In this document: piece by piece, positions 12,492 to 19,460 of the stretch
Layout of the letters: the number at the start of each line of letters is the position of its first letter
How positions within the stretch are numbered: the stretch's first letter is position 1
Assembly: GCA_017432005.1 (NCBI GenBank)
Contig: JAFRKA010000021.1
Coordinates: 124,001 to 188,000 of the forward strand
Reading direction: 5' to 3'
From: Erysipelotrichaceae bacterium
Lineage (GTDB): Bacteria; Bacillota_I; Bacilli_A; Erysipelotrichales; Erysipelotrichaceae
Length of the DNA stretch: 64,000 nucleotides
Notes under the pieces: model-generated
What the model was told of the DNA's origin: nothing
Databases searched by the model: none
What the model saw: only the letters and a program-made list of their open reading frames with translations
Made by a program: the position numbers and the translations under genes

Positions 12492-14585
12492 TCAGTTGCC
12501 CTGTTTGGCTACGATATACACGACGATCGGCGTATCAGTACTATATGTACCGCCAGTATAACTCTCGTTTCCGTTGACCGTGATCTTCAGGATCTGACCG
12601 ACTGCTTCACCATGCGAAGAAGTAGCTTCAACGAACTGAACGTTCGTAAATGCAGATAAGGCTTCAGCAATCGTATTTTTGGTCGCATTGAATGTTTCTC
12701 CGGCCTGATAATACTGAGGTCTCATGACCGTAGCTTCCGTGACTTTCTTGCCTAAAGATACAGTATAAGACACGGTATCACCTGAATCATATTCCCCTGC
12801 TTTGTATGAGAGGATGCATCCTGACGCTACAGAATCGGAATAATCTTCGCCCGTCTTGCTTAATTTCAACCCCAGACCGCTGATATATGACTTGAACTCA
12901 CTTTCAGTTTTGCCAGTATATCCGCTGTCAACAGTAACTTTAGTGGTGGCAGGAGTGCTTTCTTTCTTGCCTAAAGACAATCCGTAATTGAAGTTTTCCT
13001 TATTCTCGTACCAGCCATAGCCGTGAGTGACGATACTTCCTTTTGCTACAGAATCGGAATAAGCGTCTCTGTCAGATAAATGTACGGGATTCAGACCAAG
13101 ATCAGTTGCGATCTTCTTGAATTCTGATTCAGTTTTTCCGACATACTTGTCTTTACTTATATAGAAATCCTCATCTGTAGAAGTGGAACTGCTGTCTTTT
13201 TTACCTAATGAGAGACCGTAATTGAAATCCTCATCCTTTTCATACTGACCGTAACCGTGGGTGACGATACTTCCCTTGGTTACCGTATCGGAATAGGCAT
13301 CTCTATCACTAAGATGGACAGGCTTAAGACCAAGATTGGTAGCGATCTTCTTGAATTCTTCCTCGGTCTTTCCAACATACTTGTCTTTACTTACATACAG
13401 ATCATCGGCTGATGTTCCGTCTTCTTTGCCTAAAGAAAGTCCGTAGTTGAAATTTTCGCCTTTTTCGTATTGTCCGTTACCGTGTGTTACGATACTTCCC
13501 TTCGCTACCGTATCAGAATAGGCATCCCTTTCAGTAAGATGGACAGGCTTGAGTCCCAGATCTGTGGCGATCTTCTTGAATTCCTCTTCGGTCTTGCCTA
13601 CATATTTGCCTCTGCTGATATTAAGATCTTCTTCAGTGACAGTTCCGTCTTCTTTGCCTAATGACAGACCGTAATTGAATGTTTCATCTTTTACATAAGT
13701 TCCTGAGCCATGCCAGACGATCTTGCCTTTTTCTACAGTCGTACTGTAAGCGTCCTTCTCAGTTTTGTGATTTGGTTTGAGTCCCAGATCTGTGGCGGCC
13801 TTTTTGAAGTCCTCTTCGGTCTTTCCTACATAAGTGCCGGAACTGACTACGATACCGTCAGTCTTTTCGGTGCAGACACCGTAGTTGATCTTCTCCCCTT
13901 TCTCATAAGTTCCTGAACCATGCCAGACTATATTGCCTTTAGTGACAGAATCACTTTTGGCGTCCTTCGATTCAAGATGGTTTGGTACAAGTCCGAGAGC
14001 TTTGACTTTAGTCTCAAACTCGCTGACACTCAGATTGGTATATGTTCCTGATTTGACTTCGATCTTGCCGTCACTGTCAGGTTTAACTTCTTTTGATCTG
14101 GCGATATAGACAGTAACCGGCGTATTCTTATAGATACCCTGAGCAGGTTCGATCCTGATGATCGATCCGTCAGGCTTGCTGTCGCTTTCTTCCTCGGTAA
14201 ATGATATATTCAATATTCCGTTTTCGGCAGCCCAGATCTCGATATCCGATTTTCTTGTGGTATCGCTGATCGCCGGAAAAGCGATCTCTTTGATCAATTC
14301 ACTGGAAACGGTGAATGTTATCTTGTCAGTAAGTTCATTTTCAGCTGAGACAGACTGATTGAAGATCTTGTCCTTATCGATGCTGGTGCTTTCTTCGTAA
14401 ACGAATTCACAGGCGTATTTTTCATCGAGTGCGCCGCACCATTCGATGGCTTCATTTATATCCCTGCCAAGAAAATCAGGGACGATTACTTTTCTGTTTC
14501 CCTGAATATAGGTATATCCGAGAAATCCTGCCAGGCCTAAGACGGCCAGCAGGATAAGTATAAGTAAGGCATTCAGTTTTTTCAT
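12492..14585 (-). CDS. Membrane-anchored PASTA-repeat surface protein
   Basis: This 697-residue protein has an uncleaved N-terminal anchor (about 5-27) and an extracytoplasmic region. Two PASTA-like domains come first (KVIVPDFLGRDINEAIEW and IKEIAFPAISDT). Six repeats of about 70-75 residues follow, each reading roughly S-x-G-x-Y-V-G-K-T-E-x-E-F-K-K-x-A-T-x-L-G-L-x-P, then a V-x-K-G-x-I-V-x-H-G block and F-N-Y-G-L-S-L-G-K. A last partial domain ends in PIVVYIVAKQ. There is no kinase or transpeptidase domain, so this is a stand-alone PASTA array, probably binding peptidoglycan or muropeptides. It follows the GH73 hydrolase gene with an AGGAGG-type site and may modulate it. Confidence 0.75.
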   Translation of the reverse strand: MKKLNALLILILLAVLGLAGFLGYTYIQGNRKVIVPDFLGRDINEAIEWCGALDEKYACEFVYEESTSIDKDKIFNQSVSAENELTDKITFTVSSELIKEIAFPAISDTTRKSDIEIWAAENGILNISFTEEESDSKPDGSIIRIEPAQGIYKNTPVTVYIARSKEVKPDSDGKIEVKSGTYTNLSVSEFETKVKALGLVPNHLESKDAKSDSVTKGNIVWHGSGTYEKGEKINYGVCTEKTDGIVVSSGTYVGKTEEDFKKAATDLGLKPNHKTEKDAYSTTVEKGKIVWHGSGTYVKDETFNYGLSLGKEDGTVTEEDLNISRGKYVGKTEEEFKKIATDLGLKPVHLTERDAYSDTVAKGSIVTHGNGQYEKGENFNYGLSLGKEDGTSADDLYVSKDKYVGKTEEEFKKIATNLGLKPVHLSDRDAYSDTVTKGSIVTHGYGQYEKDEDFNYGLSLGKKDSSSTSTDEDFYISKDKYVGKTESEFKKIATDLGLNPVHLSDRDAYSDSVAKGSIVTHGYGWYENKENFNYGLSLGKKESTPATTKVTVDSGYTGKTESEFKSYISGLGLKLSKTGEDYSDSVASGCILSYKAGEYDSGDTVSYTVSLGKKVTEATVMRPQYYQAGETFNATKNTIAEALSAFTNVQFVEATSSHGEAVGQILKITVNGNESYTGGTYSTDTPIVVYIVAKQGN
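12955..14062 (-). repeat. Six tandem PASTA-like coding repeats
   Basis: Repeats of about 210-235 bases within the PASTA gene. The middle four are most alike at DNA level (for example GAGGAATTCAAGAAGATCGC recurs), which suggests recent expansion by recombination. Outer repeats are more diverged. Confidence 0.75.
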
Positions 14586-14602
14586 GTTATTTCCTCCAAA
14601 AA

Positions 14603-17200
14603 TCAGTGGCTGATATTCATGATCATTCTGTATCTCACTGCTTCGATGCGGAATTCAGTCTTGAGTCCTTCCTTTTCAAGCAGCGTATATTTCGTATTGT
14701 AGCGGTTGTTCAGTTCGATCAGATCGCGGTATTCTCCGTTCTTGACTTCCAGCATGAGTCTGTAATCACCATTAAGATCATCAAGACCTACTTTCGCAGT
14801 GTAACAGATGTTATCCATGTTGTAGTCGGAATTGTAGAATGATCTGAAATCGATCTTGCAGGCATGAGTCGTCGTATCTGCTTTTACGACATTTCCTCCA
14901 TTAACAAGATAGAGATCGTGAGATATCTGATCATTGTTGTAATTGAGGTAATAGATCATGCCGACACCGTCAAAGACAGCATAGTTCTTTCCGTCTTCTT
15001 CGACATAGTTCACTTCATCAACAGTACCAAGAGAAGATCTTATAGAAGCTTTCTTTATTCCGGTATAATCTAGTGCGTTGTTTACGATATCAGTCTCGAT
15101 ACGGTATCCGTAAACATCGTTGGTCGACAATCTGTAGGCTTTATCAGATATGACATTGCTCAACAAAGCCAATGACTTCATCGAAGTTTTCAATGTATCG
15201 ACTTTCTCGATCGCTCCGGCATAAGAAGTCTTCAGACGGAAATAATAAGTTCCTTCAGGAAGATTCTTAAGATCATATGATCCATTGAATCCGCCATATG
15301 TATATTTATAACCGTCATTTATGCTGTACCAGCTCGTATCGTAATTTGAGCAGGCAAATTCCGTGACTTTGTTTCCGTCAGCCAGATTGTATATTTCGAC
15401 TTTATGAACAACAGCACTGTTGTCAGTCATATTCACTTTAGAGATGATCCCGATACCGTTGATACTCAAAACGCCATCATTCAGTTTAAGATCATCAACG
15501 ATCGTGATCGGATCATGACTAAGCTGAGGATCGACAACAGGAGGTTCAGGCGTGACTGTCTGTTCTTCTTCAGCGTTCAGCAGTCTGACTTCTTTCTTAT
15601 CGATATAAGCTACAGAATCGCCCCAGTCATATTTCAGTTTTCCGTCTTCCGTCACCAGCTGTCCGTCTTCGACCGGATTCGGACACTGTACTTTATAACG
15701 TCCATTCTCTTCCCCGATGATACCGACGATCATATCTTTCTGATAATGAGTTCCATATCTGCCGGTAAACAGGACATCATTACCTGTTGATTTCTTATAA
15801 AATTTCGCATCCCAGGAGATATTCGAATCATAGAGGACATCATTATAGTTACTGCTTACATACGCCATCTGAACGCTGTTATAATCGCTCAGAGAGCCGT
15901 TCTTGCTGTTAGCATACTTATCGATATTGTATGCAATAGCCGCAATACCCTGAGCCCAATATGGATCAGAAGCGTATTTGACATTGAATCCGGCTCCCTT
16001 GTTGCCTAAGAAGCAGCCGAAATAACGCCAGTTTGTATAATCCGCAAACCAGTTGAGATAACGACCCATCTGTGTCTTTACACAGCTTTCTACTGAAGAG
16101 AACGTTGCCGCATCATCCGGATTGTCATCATAAGCATTCCAGCCAAAAAGATTGTTTCTGTTGCGAGCATAGCCTGATGTGCCATAGGCAGATTCGTGGC
16201 AGGCCATCGCATAGATCATCAGTGCATTGAAGCCGTATTTGTTCTGCGCTTCGATAAAGCAGCTGCCTTCATTCTTCAAAACGGATCCGCTTCTGTCACT
16301 GACATAGCTGTCTAAGACACTGGCGCTGATATTCGTCTTGCTGCGTAAAGGCAGGAACTGATAGTAGTTATAGCACGTAGTGACTTTCTGAGTGCATTTC
16401 TGATCGCTGTAGAAGTTTATGCCGTCATTTGAATAGTATTTGACGTTTTCCTTCATCCCGGCTTTCAGATAGTTTGCGGCGTTGTCGACAGCTGTATTAT
16501 AGGTCACGAGCTTGTTGCCGTTGACTCCGTAGGCATAGTGATTGCAGAAGACCAGATCTTTATAATTACCGTTTTTGCTGATGATGTAGTAATTCTGTTC
16601 TATTCTGACCAAATATGGATTTTCACTGCCGTAAGAAACATAGCCGCCCTTATAGCCACCCAGATAGATCGGAATATCATTGTTTATGTACTTGAACGGG
16701 ACTAGATCGGTATATTCCAGATCAGCATAGCCTTCAAAACCATTGAGTTCAATCCTGATATAGCCTTTGCCGTCCTTGTTTGCTGAAGTAGTATCGTAAT
16801 AGAACATCTCATATCCCTTGGATACGAAAGTCGATTTGTATTTGGAATTACCGGACTGATTAGGATCCTGATAAAGATCCATCGTCGATGAACCTCTTCT
16901 GTTTGGATAAGTATAGGCCAAGCCTGAATTCATGGCTAATATCTTGGTAGCAGAATAAGAATTCTCCTGTCTTACCACGTAGTTCTCGTTCTTCTTCATG
17001 GCCTTCTTGGCATCATTGAAATTATCATGACATGAGACCTTGGAGAATGAGCCGTCATCATTGATGTAAGAGACTTCAAACTCATCAGCAGCACACGCCA
17101 TCGAATAGCTGTTATCGGCAGAGACAGTAAAATGCTCGCTGTATGGCAACAGGGTCGATATGATAACAGTGATAAGTAATGTCCCTAGTATCTTTTTCAT
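14603..17200 (-). CDS. Secreted GH73-type N-acetylglucosaminidase (peptidoglycan hydrolase)
   Basis: This 865-residue protein has a signal peptide (MKKILGTLLITVIISTLLPY). An N-terminal region with two SH3-like or unknown segments precedes a glucosaminidase domain (about 295-460) with the family's ACHESAYGTS, Glu336 being the likely catalytic acid, then NNLFGWNAYDDNP and YWAQGIAAIAYNID. An SH3-type segment (FTGRYGTHYQKDMIVGIIGEE) and a long C-terminal beta-rich region follow. It should cleave glycan strands of peptidoglycan outside the cell. The gene starts almost directly after the stop of the membrane-anchored protein gene. The C-terminal domain is not recognised. Confidence 0.8.
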   Translation of the reverse strand: MKKILGTLLITVIISTLLPYSEHFTVSADNSYSMACAADEFEVSYINDDGSFSKVSCHDNFNDAKKAMKKNENYVVRQENSYSATKILAMNSGLAYTYPNRRGSSTMDLYQDPNQSGNSKYKSTFVSKGYEMFYYDTTSANKDGKGYIRIELNGFEGYADLEYTDLVPFKYINNDIPIYLGGYKGGYVSYGSENPYLVRIEQNYYIISKNGNYKDLVFCNHYAYGVNGNKLVTYNTAVDNAANYLKAGMKENVKYYSNDGINFYSDQKCTQKVTTCYNYYQFLPLRSKTNISASVLDSYVSDRSGSVLKNEGSCFIEAQNKYGFNALMIYAMACHESAYGTSGYARNRNNLFGWNAYDDNPDDAATFSSVESCVKTQMGRYLNWFADYTNWRYFGCFLGNKGAGFNVKYASDPYWAQGIAAIAYNIDKYANSKNGSLSDYNSVQMAYVSSNYNDVLYDSNISWDAKFYKKSTGNDVLFTGRYGTHYQKDMIVGIIGEENGRYKVQCPNPVEDGQLVTEDGKLKYDWGDSVAYIDKKEVRLLNAEEEQTVTPEPPVVDPQLSHDPITIVDDLKLNDGVLSINGIGIISKVNMTDNSAVVHKVEIYNLADGNKVTEFACSNYDTSWYSINDGYKYTYGGFNGSYDLKNLPEGTYYFRLKTSYAGAIEKVDTLKTSMKSLALLSNVISDKAYRLSTNDVYGYRIETDIVNNALDYTGIKKASIRSSLGTVDEVNYVEEDGKNYAVFDGVGMIYYLNYNNDQISHDLYLVNGGNVVKADTTTHACKIDFRSFYNSDYNMDNICYTAKVGLDDLNGDYRLMLEVKNGEYRDLIELNNRYNTKYTLLEKEGLKTEFRIEAVRYRMIMNISH

Positions 17201-17203
17201 TTA

Positions 17204-18157
17204 TTACTCTAAAACAGTCGGTATCTTTACCCAGTCATTGGAATTGGAGAACATCAGCATCAGCGAACCGGAAAGATCAGGATTTTCTTCTCTTGTGAGC
17301 GCTTCAAAGAACAGAGCTCCGTTTTCGCCCTGAACAAGCTTCTTGCCCAGACAGTTTACATCCTGAACGGATTCGTATTCTTCAGACATGCAAGGGATAA
17401 CTTCCCCATTGCTATTGCGTACGAAATTCGCATCTGTGATCATTACATTGCCTTCAACTTTACTGACATTGATCTTGAATGTATAGACCGGAATAGCTGA
17501 TGAATAAGTTTCGCCGTTATGGATCATCATCGTAGAGACATATGAAGATGATACCGTAACATTTGTATTGCCGATCTCGATCTGCTGCTGCGTATCGAAT
17601 TTAAGCGTAGAAACATCTTTGATGTTCTGCTGCAGATCGAATTCGATCATCGAGGCATCGAGAGAATTTAGCAGTCTCAGAGAATAATTGTCAGTAGTAT
17701 ACGGAATGAAGACTTTGCAGATATATTCATTCTGTTTGGAAACAACTGTATTGACGATGCCTAGCTTGGAAACCTTATATGATTTTTCCTCAAGCAGATT
17801 TATATATTTTGATACATTGTTTAGATAGATCTTTTCCGAAGTCTGAAGATTGCCCAGATCGAATGATATCGGTTCATTTCCCTTGAAGCTCAATTCAGCC
17901 ACAATAAAATTAAAACCGATATTCTCGGAATCTCCTGTATAGACTTCATAATCGACCAGTTCAACTTTGATGTTTTCGTTGGTTTTGATCGGATCCGGGT
18001 CAACATTCGTACCCGGTTTATCGTTATTCTTATCCTCTTTAGACATGAAATAATCGACAGTCTTGTAGATGCCAAAACCGGCGATCCCTGTGATCAGGAT
18101 CCCCAGCAGAACAAGAATAATGATACGGTCAGCACGTACTTTGCGTTTTTTGGCCAT
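17204..18157 (-). CDS. Membrane-anchored extracytoplasmic protein of unknown function
   Basis: This 317-residue protein has a basic N-terminus (MAKKRKVRADR), one transmembrane helix (about 12-34), a short D/N/P-rich linker, then about 260 beta-rich residues. The chain seems to hold two similar halves, each moving from a FIVAELSFKGNEPISFDL-like strand pair to a polar end, as in DUF4352-like immunoglobulin folds, but this is weak. It has a good AAGGAG site and lies one base after the Phd-like gene stop, and directly before the glucosaminidase, pointing to a cell-envelope role. Confidence 0.65.
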   Translation of the reverse strand: MAKKRKVRADRIIILVLLGILITGIAGFGIYKTVDYFMSKEDKNNDKPGTNVDPDPIKTNENIKVELVDYEVYTGDSENIGFNFIVAELSFKGNEPISFDLGNLQTSEKIYLNNVSKYINLLEEKSYKVSKLGIVNTVVSKQNEYICKVFIPYTTDNYSLRLLNSLDASMIEFDLQQNIKDVSTLKFDTQQQIEIGNTNVTVSSSYVSTMMIHNGETYSSAIPVYTFKINVSKVEGNVMITDANFVRNSNGEVIPCMSEEYESVQDVNCLGKKLVQGENGALFFEALTREENPDLSGSLMLMFSNSNDWVKIPTVLE

Positions 18158-18158
18158 T

Positions 18159-18368
18159 CTATTTCTCCTTTATCCTTTCTTCTGCTTCGATCAGCTGTGA
18201 AAAACGGGAGATCGGTATGATAGCTGCCATAGGTTCATTGTTTTTAACGATGATCTTGACATCATCCGGACCGAGTGAACTTATTATCTTTGCCGCTTTC
18301 CCCTGGTTGAGCTGTGAAATTGGAACCAGTGAATTTAACATAGTCCCGAAACTCAATTTATTCGTCAT
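18159..18368 (-). CDS. Phd/YefM-like antitoxin-fold protein without a partner toxin
   Basis: This 69-residue protein resembles the N-terminal DNA-binding part of Phd/YefM antitoxins: a short strand, PISQLNQGKAAKIISSL, then VKIIVKNNEPMAAIIPISRFSQL and an acidic/basic tail. No RelE/Doc-like toxin gene is adjacent; instead a membrane protein follows one base later. I choose the ATG at 18366-18368 rather than the ATG two codons earlier, because a perfect promoter puts the transcript start exactly there. It may be a transcriptional regulator of the four-gene operon it heads. Confidence 0.65.
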   Translation of the reverse strand: MTNKLSFGTMLNSLVPISQLNQGKAAKIISSLGPDDVKIIVKNNEPMAAIIPISRFSQLIEAEERIKEK

Positions 18369-18374
18369 ACCCAT

Positions 18375-18403
18375 ATTATAAAAAGAAGCTATAAATTTGT
18401 CAA
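18375..18403 (-). promoter_or_regulatory. Perfect sigma-A promoter, leaderless with respect to the Phd-like gene
   Basis: TTGACA (18398-18403), a 17-base spacer, and TATAAT (18375-18380). Six bases on is the ATG at 18366-18368, so the predicted +1 is the A of the start codon. No Shine-Dalgarno sequence is possible. Confidence 0.85.
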
Positions 18404-18419
18404 TAACTTCTTTTATATA

Positions 18420-18455
18420 TTTATCGTATTATTTATCGATATATTTATCTATATC
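18420..18455. repeat. Three 12-bp direct repeats TTTATCNNNNNN
   Basis: TTTATC occurs at 18420, 18432 and 18444, exactly 12 bases apart, each followed by an AT-rich six-mer. The array lies between the galE stop and the Phd-like promoter, 17 bases upstream of its -35 box. Confidence 0.7.
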
Positions 18456-19460
18456 TTATTTATTCAATCCACAGGTGAACCTGTAGGAATCAGCACACAT
18501 CTCGTCGATATCATACTGAGCCTTGAAACCAAGCAGTTCTTCTGCTTTACTCGTATCGGCATAACAGACAGCTATATCGCCTGGTCTTCTTTCCATGATC
18601 TTATAAGGAATAGGTTTCCCACAGGCCTTTTCATAGGCTTTCAGGACTTCCAATACGGAATAGCCCTTCCCTGTACCGATATTGATCACTTCTGTGCCTT
18701 TATGCGATGCGGCATATTCAATGGCCTTGACATGAGCCTTGGCCAGATCGACGACATGGATATAGTCACGTACGCCTGTCCCGTCAGGCGTATCGTAATC
18801 GTCTCCCCAGACGCGCAGATAATCTCTTTGACCGGAAACGACCTGAGCGATATAAGGAACCAGGTTGTTGGGGATACCGTTAGGGATCTCTCCGATCAGT
18901 CCTGAAGAATGAGCTCCGATCGGATTAAAGTAACGCAGAAGAACGGAAGAATTCTCTTTTTCGGCCTGATCCATATCAGTGATGATCATTTCATTCATCT
19001 TCTTGGTCGTTCCATACGGATTGGTCGTTGTTCCCAGACCGTATTCTTCCTTGAAAGGAACTTCAAAATCATCGCCGTAGACGGTCGCACTTGAAGAGAA
19101 GACCAGATTCCTGACTTCATATTTCTTCATCAGCTGATAGAGATTGATCGAACCGGAGATATTGTTTTCATAATATGTCAGAGGAATACTTACAGATTCC
19201 CCTACAGCCTTATAGCCGGCAAAGTGGATCACCGCATCGAAATCATTCTCTTTAAAGACTTCTTCGAGTTTATCTTTGTCCAGGATATCGACTTCATAGA
19301 ATTTCGGTCTGACACCGCTGATCTTTTCGATCTTGTCGATCACATCAGCAGAAGAATTGTAAAGATTATCCAGGATGACGACTTCATGTCCGGAACTGAT
19401 TAGTTCCACACAGGTATGGGAACCGATGTAGCCGGTCCCTCCGGTAACGAGAATTTTCAT
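18456..19460 (-). CDS. galE: UDP-glucose 4-epimerase
   Basis: This 334-residue extended SDR enzyme interconverts UDP-glucose and UDP-galactose. It has the NAD-binding VTGGTGYIGSHT at the N-terminus, the YGTTKKMNE active-site Tyr/Lys (the motif is usually YGxTK), and SSSATVYG for the catalytic Ser/Thr. Length is typical. It starts one base after the rseP stop region with a GAGGT site, so it ends the rpsB-to-rseP transcription unit. No terminator is evident after it. Confidence 0.95.
   Translation of the reverse strand: MKILVTGGTGYIGSHTCVELISSGHEVVILDNLYNSSADVIDKIEKISGVRPKFYEVDILDKDKLEEVFKENDFDAVIHFAGYKAVGESVSIPLTYYENNISGSINLYQLMKKYEVRNLVFSSSATVYGDDFEVPFKEEYGLGTTTNPYGTTKKMNEMIITDMDQAEKENSSVLLRYFNPIGAHSSGLIGEIPNGIPNNLVPYIAQVVSGQRDYLRVWGDDYDTPDGTGVRDYIHVVDLAKAHVKAIEYAASHKGTEVINIGTGKGYSVLEVLKAYEKACGKPIPYKIMERRPGDIAVCYADTSKAEELLGFKAQYDIDEMCADSYRFTCGLNK

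Follow-up and report, generated by a model that had tools for sequence, protein, structure and literature searches.

Phd/YefM-type proteins normally neutralize a paired toxin. In the genome of an Erysipelotrichaceae bacterium (assembly GCA_017432005.1), we analyzed a window, the whole of a 64,000-nucleotide stretch of contig JAFRKA010000021.1, in which the gene for a small Phd-like protein (phd) is followed by genes for a membrane-anchored protein (mem), a GH73 glucosaminidase, and a PASTA-array protein. What does a protein of the antitoxin family do at the head of a cell wall operon? The original prediction, made from the letters of the window, held that the four genes form a head-to-tail unit with gaps of about 1 to 17 bases behind one perfect promoter, and suggested that the antitoxin fold serves here as a regulator of wall remodeling. 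The layout was borne out by the coordinates (Table 1). All four genes run head to tail with intergenic gaps of 1, 3, and 17 bases, and a TTGACA-N17-TATAAT promoter (18403-18375) lies ahead of them; perfect promoters of this form, with a 17-base spacer, number only seven in the 2.2-Mb genome. We took the ATG at 18368 as the better start of phd, because an additional ATG in the same frame, at 18374, lacks conservation and directly adjoins the -10 box. Pfam matches support the GH73 (E = 3.5e-15) and PASTA (E = 2e-37, seven stretches) assignments. A pyruvate:ferredoxin oxidoreductase gene, here called nifJ, lies downstream of the PASTA gene and has its own Shine-Dalgarno site.

Table 1. Features of the phd locus, in window coordinates
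Feature	Position	Strand	Description
phd-like gene	18159..18368	-	69 aa; Phd/YefM N-terminal domain, without C-terminal toxin-binding tail
mem	17204..18157	-	Membrane-anchored; one TM helix and two predicted beta-sandwich domains resembling YjhA/YxkC (DUF4352-like)
GH73 glucosaminidase gene	14603..17200	-	Secreted, 865 aa; Pfam
PASTA-array protein gene	12492..14585	-	Membrane-anchored, 697 aa, without kinase domain; Pfam
galE	18456..19460	-	Upstream neighbor, conserved
-35 element TTGACA	18398..18403	-	
-10 element TATAAT	18375..18380	-	Ends 6 bases before the ATG at 18368
Three tandem 12-bp units, GATAAATATATC GATAAATAATAC GATAAATATATA	18414..18449	-	Proposed operator array
Inverted repeat, 12-bp stem	18381..18414	-	-35 hexamer in loop; T run to -10; galE-terminator-like

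The same arrangement recurs well beyond the window. Orthologues of phd were found in 31 of 35 genomes of the same genus, and the order dxr-rseP-galE-phd-mem-GH73-PASTA-nifJ was constant in the 30 same-genus loci that we fetched, as far as their contigs extend. Given this frequency and constancy, the four-gene unit is not a product of chance. The arrangement galE-phd-mem-GH73-PASTA is also present in two further genera, g82 and g70, so the search for a shared gene order that had been proposed as a check found it kept across the genus and two more genera. Among the four same-genus genomes without phd, three had no galE and the fourth only a distant match to it, and the absence of phd in them may thus reflect missing sequence. 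Named records with the phd unit belong to the Erysipelotrichaceae and come mainly from the guts of ruminants and other animals.

Against the Phd/YefM family (PF02604), the protein encoded in the window scores 15.9 bits, below the cut-off of 29.8. Some of its distant homologues from the same taxonomic order reach 30.1 and 34.0 bits, and in an alignment the Phd-like protein matches these above-cut-off relatives over the whole domain, with S-x-[LF]-N-x-G-x-A-x-K-I and K-N-N-x-P in common. Because these aligned relatives reach the Pfam cut-off, we regard the Phd assignment as settled. The structure model is of low confidence (pLDDT 68), and a fold search with it gave weak matches only, to RelB2, YefM, and related antitoxins. 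A second Phd protein in the window's genome (L061, 73 aa, 36 bits) is a different and more typical Phd.

We then compared the true orthologues with 16 distant homologues and their neighbors. The distant homologues are 96 to 120 aa long (mostly 101 to 107) and possess a C-terminal tail, and in 15 of the 16 a toxin gene overlaps the homologue's end (RelE-like in 10, PIN in 5). These toxins were assigned by eye from sequence, apart from four on which Pfam was run, yielding two PIN and one ParE match above the cut-off and one ParE-like match below it. True orthologues, in contrast, are only about 69 to 75 aa long and end approximately 10 to 15 residues past the domain; the tail, about 35 to 40 residues in the toxin-paired relatives, is missing from every one of them. 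No adjacent cognate toxin gene was present in the 30 same-genus phd loci or in the two further genera. The claim that the Phd-like protein stands without a toxin partner therefore holds at all of these loci, and toxins of the RelE or Doc kind, which had been suggested as the sign of an ordinary antitoxin, are never found beside true orthologues; only the distant, longer, tailed homologues are toxin-paired. On these sequence comparisons, the Phd-like protein belongs to a Phd/YefM subfamily in which the other members are paired with RelE or PIN toxins, but is itself an orphan that lacks the tail.

Such an orphan might be a stand-alone antitoxin directed against a toxin encoded elsewhere, with its position among wall genes being incidental. 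Solo antitoxins that act in trans have been discussed in the literature (PMC2701414), and several genomes of the window's genus do carry RelE-type toxins. However, we found no PF05016 (RelE/ParE) toxin in the window's own genome, which is 94% complete, nor in 19 of the 35 other members of the genus that were searched; the part of the protein that the toxin-paired relatives carry at the C terminus is gone from every orthologue, and the neighborhood is fixed. This explanation is thus very improbable. We also rejected the idea that phd is a pseudogene or a dying antitoxin, given the strong purifying selection on it and its fixed place in the gene order. Over the same genome pairs, phd is more conserved than mem in both identity (81 to 88% versus 57 to 74%) and dN (0.07 to 0.15 versus 0.19 to 0.36). 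One phd gene (L094, G021:C49) has a foreign or odd N terminus. An assembly join is the most likely cause, since contig C102 of that genome ends in a normal phd start (L197).

The gene that takes the toxin's usual place is mem, which commonly overlaps the phd stop codon as toxin genes do, and phd and mem could accordingly be a new toxin-antitoxin pair with the membrane protein as the toxin. The structure prediction for mem (pLDDT 84) shows one membrane helix and two beta-sandwich domains. Its fold matches are local, covering one domain with weak E-values, and comprise CD630_09570, YjhA, and YxkC, the last of which was modeled together with DacA. Such a membrane-anchored architecture, similar to that of YjhA and YxkC, argues against a toxin, and we ruled mem out as one because it is present without phd in 10 genera (a lower bound of at least 10), usually before the same GH73 gene. 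We therefore give the pairing of phd with a mem toxin hardly any credence.

The distribution of mem also bears on how phd reached its present position. A profile search found mem in 25 of the 59 genera of the family, and we fetched 20 mem loci from outside the window's genus. Sixteen of them, from 10 genera, have no phd; mem is there usually followed by GH73, contig permitting, and often lies directly after galE. The remaining four (g70 and g82) have phd. On the galE and mem trees the phd label is clustered, changing twice compared with about eight times when labels were shuffled, and it may have arisen from one origin. Since mem-GH73 occurs without phd in at least 10 other genera, often after galE, the simplest reading of these gene neighborhoods is that an already existing mem-GH73 wall operon probably gained at its head an antitoxin gene that had lost its toxin, with a later loss of phd in genus g18 being possible. 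In several phd-less genera (L246, L248, L251, L258, and L259) the nearest PASTA gene is on the opposite strand, suggesting that PASTA either became part of the mem-GH73 unit at a later stage or dropped out of it.

The region that the original prediction had named for binding by the Phd-like protein, 18375-18455, contains a tandem array of 12-bp units of the GATAAATATATC type, located between galE and the -35 element, upstream of the promoter. The exact array pattern occurs once in the 2.2-Mb genome; a search for an array-based regulon elsewhere in this genome returned no other exact array, and matches with two mismatches were scattered, save an overlapping one within the array itself. TAAAT pairs 12 bp apart were observed 35 times, versus 0.4 expected from dinucleotide shuffles, and in 25 of 29 loci. 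The excess of matches upstream of phd orthologues peaks at a lag of 12 (z = +12.7), as it does upstream of the toxin-paired relatives (z = +7.2), although these z-scores are indicative only, as a nifJ-upstream control gave z = +4.2 and related sequences inflate the scores. Tested one by one, only 5 of the 16 toxin-paired loci had a 12-bp repeat (p < 0.02), and some toxin-paired relatives show clear tandem units (for example, ACGCAAAATTTA ACGCAAAAATTG ACGCAAAAATAT).

In Escherichia coli, the YefM operator consists of two palindromes 12 bp apart, centre to centre, a spacing that matters for cooperative binding (PMC4803016). Like this YefM-YoeB operator, the array lies near the promoter and its neighboring units are 12 bp apart from center to center (PMC4803016); it differs in being AT-rich, of GATAAAT type, and upstream of the -35 element, whereas the YefM-YoeB operator has a TGTACA core and two palindromes, one of them over the -10 element. 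Because the spacing matches that of the YefM operator and recurs before toxin-paired relatives, we favor autoregulation by the Phd-like protein, which most likely acts as a dedicated autorepressor. The array could instead be an UP element or the site of another factor, with the Phd-like protein being an activator or acting elsewhere: it is AT-rich and sits directly upstream of the -35 element, where UP elements lie, and the direction of control is unreadable from sequence. Yet its units are spaced by 12 bp and not by the helical 10 to 11 bp, it is unique in the genome, related units precede the toxin-paired relatives, and no such array precedes mem in the intergenic regions that we read from phd-less genera. 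We consider this alternative fairly unlikely. The promoter region also contains a hairpin (18381-18414), with z = -3.7 in the window and z below -2 in 16 of 30 loci. This hairpin, which resembles a galE terminator, encloses the -35 element, and the T run after it extends as far as the -10 element, so that the terminator of the galE operon and the phd promoter overlap.

Leaderless genes are uncommon in Bacillota. Because the -10 element sits 6 bases before the ATG, we predict from the promoter sequence that the phd mRNA is leaderless, with the message beginning at the start codon. The gap is exactly 6 bases in 28 of 31 phd promoters (4, 7, and 8 bases in the other three), which places the first T of the -10 element 12 bases (6 plus 6) before the start codon in those 28. 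A strict search for TTGACA-N16-18-TATAAT-N5-7-ATG over 36 genomes returned 30 matches, 16 of which were the phd locus, in 16 different genomes. Bacterial leaderless genes are recognized by the distance of about 12 bases that separates the first T of the -10 element from the start codon, and in Firmicutes they have been reported mainly for Lactobacillales and Mycoplasma (PMC3160421). The phd genes share with these Firmicutes genes a TATAAT whose first T is 12 bases before the start codon, but the present case concerns a single locus, kept throughout one Erysipelotrichaceae genus and in a second one. In front of its likely start, each of the 16 toxin-paired relatives carries a Shine-Dalgarno-like motif (GAGG, GGAG, or AAGG). 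In g70 and two related genomes phd itself is preceded by a GGAG leader, which limits the predicted leaderless arrangement to g1 and g82. A predicted leaderless start in two genera versus a Shine-Dalgarno site in a third provides a natural comparison for studying what drives a regulator gene to become leaderless. At three loci with a GGAG leader (L193, L194, and L245), the -10 element is followed by ATGGAG and a frame of 4 to 6 codons, and the stop codon of this frame adjoins or overlaps the start of phd. The element could be a leaderless minigene or simply a Shine-Dalgarno site.

With the RelE- and PIN-paired Phd/YefM antitoxins (PF02604), the Phd-like protein shares the N-terminal signature, a small gene in first place in the operon, an overlap of that gene with its downstream neighbor at most loci, and 12-bp tandem operator-like repeats. 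It differs from them in having no toxin and no tail (about 69 to 75 versus mostly 101 to 107 aa), in its predicted leaderless start, and in heading a wall operon. Solo antitoxins as regulators are an accepted idea, and antitoxins of the Xre and RHH types have become dedicated transcription factors (PMC2701414, PMC8987985). The Phd-like protein would have followed the same route as these, in which the toxin is lost and the DNA-binding antitoxin is retained and recruited, but its fold is Phd, its insertion can be traced, and its operon is fixed. In the open-access literature that we searched, we found no Phd-fold regulator of a wall operon, nor one with a traced insertion and a fixed operon. What is new here is thus the Phd fold of the presumed regulator, together with a traced insertion, an intact array, and a putative leaderless start, solo-antitoxin regulators as such being already known. 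Toxin-paired relatives, the regulator-less operon, and the combined locus all occur in one bacterial family, making this a traceable recruitment of an antitoxin whose steps can be tested.

Taken as a whole, we think it probable that phd encodes an exapted antitoxin, inserted before an older mem-GH73 operon, that acts as a dedicated autorepressor through the 12-bp array and is made from a leaderless mRNA. In the ancestor of three Erysipelotrichaceae genera, phd would have been inserted, along with its row of putative binding sites, once or very few times between galE and mem-GH73. Dimers of the Phd-like protein would bind the tandem array upstream of the -35 element, possibly reaching into it, and would thereby determine how strongly a near-perfect sigma-A promoter is used, so that expression of the wall hydrolase and its membrane partners stays at a fixed level; mem would be translated via a Shine-Dalgarno site at the end of phd. 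A leaderless regulator might also sense the translational state of the cell, in that the repressor would still be made when Shine-Dalgarno initiation falters, turning the wall-hydrolase operon off. We hold this further role to be decidedly unlikely; if true, an antitoxin-derived repressor would couple ribosome status to cell wall lysis.

The conserved order, the insertion pattern, the missing tail and toxin, the spacing from promoter to ATG, and the array with its uniqueness were established computationally; DNA binding by the proposed autorepressor, repression rather than activation, the signal, the leaderless start, and the homeostatic role are inferred. A homeostatic set-point appears more likely than wall sensing, because no partner has a cytosolic domain able to signal to the regulator. 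The idea of an antitoxin fold regulating a wall unit is supported: the conserved order, the absence of a toxin, and the operator-like array speak for it, but the accompanying role of the PASTA protein as a wall sensor is a guess, because only about 6 of its residues are in the cytosol and the genome's full PASTA kinase is encoded elsewhere (G000:C16:14933-16546). Without a kinase domain, the PASTA protein does not have the architecture of the PASTA Ser/Thr kinases (PknB/PrkC). Besides the kinase, the same genome encodes several further PASTA-type proteins (L199-L203; G000:C6:107938, C29:50668-51939, and C24:100113).
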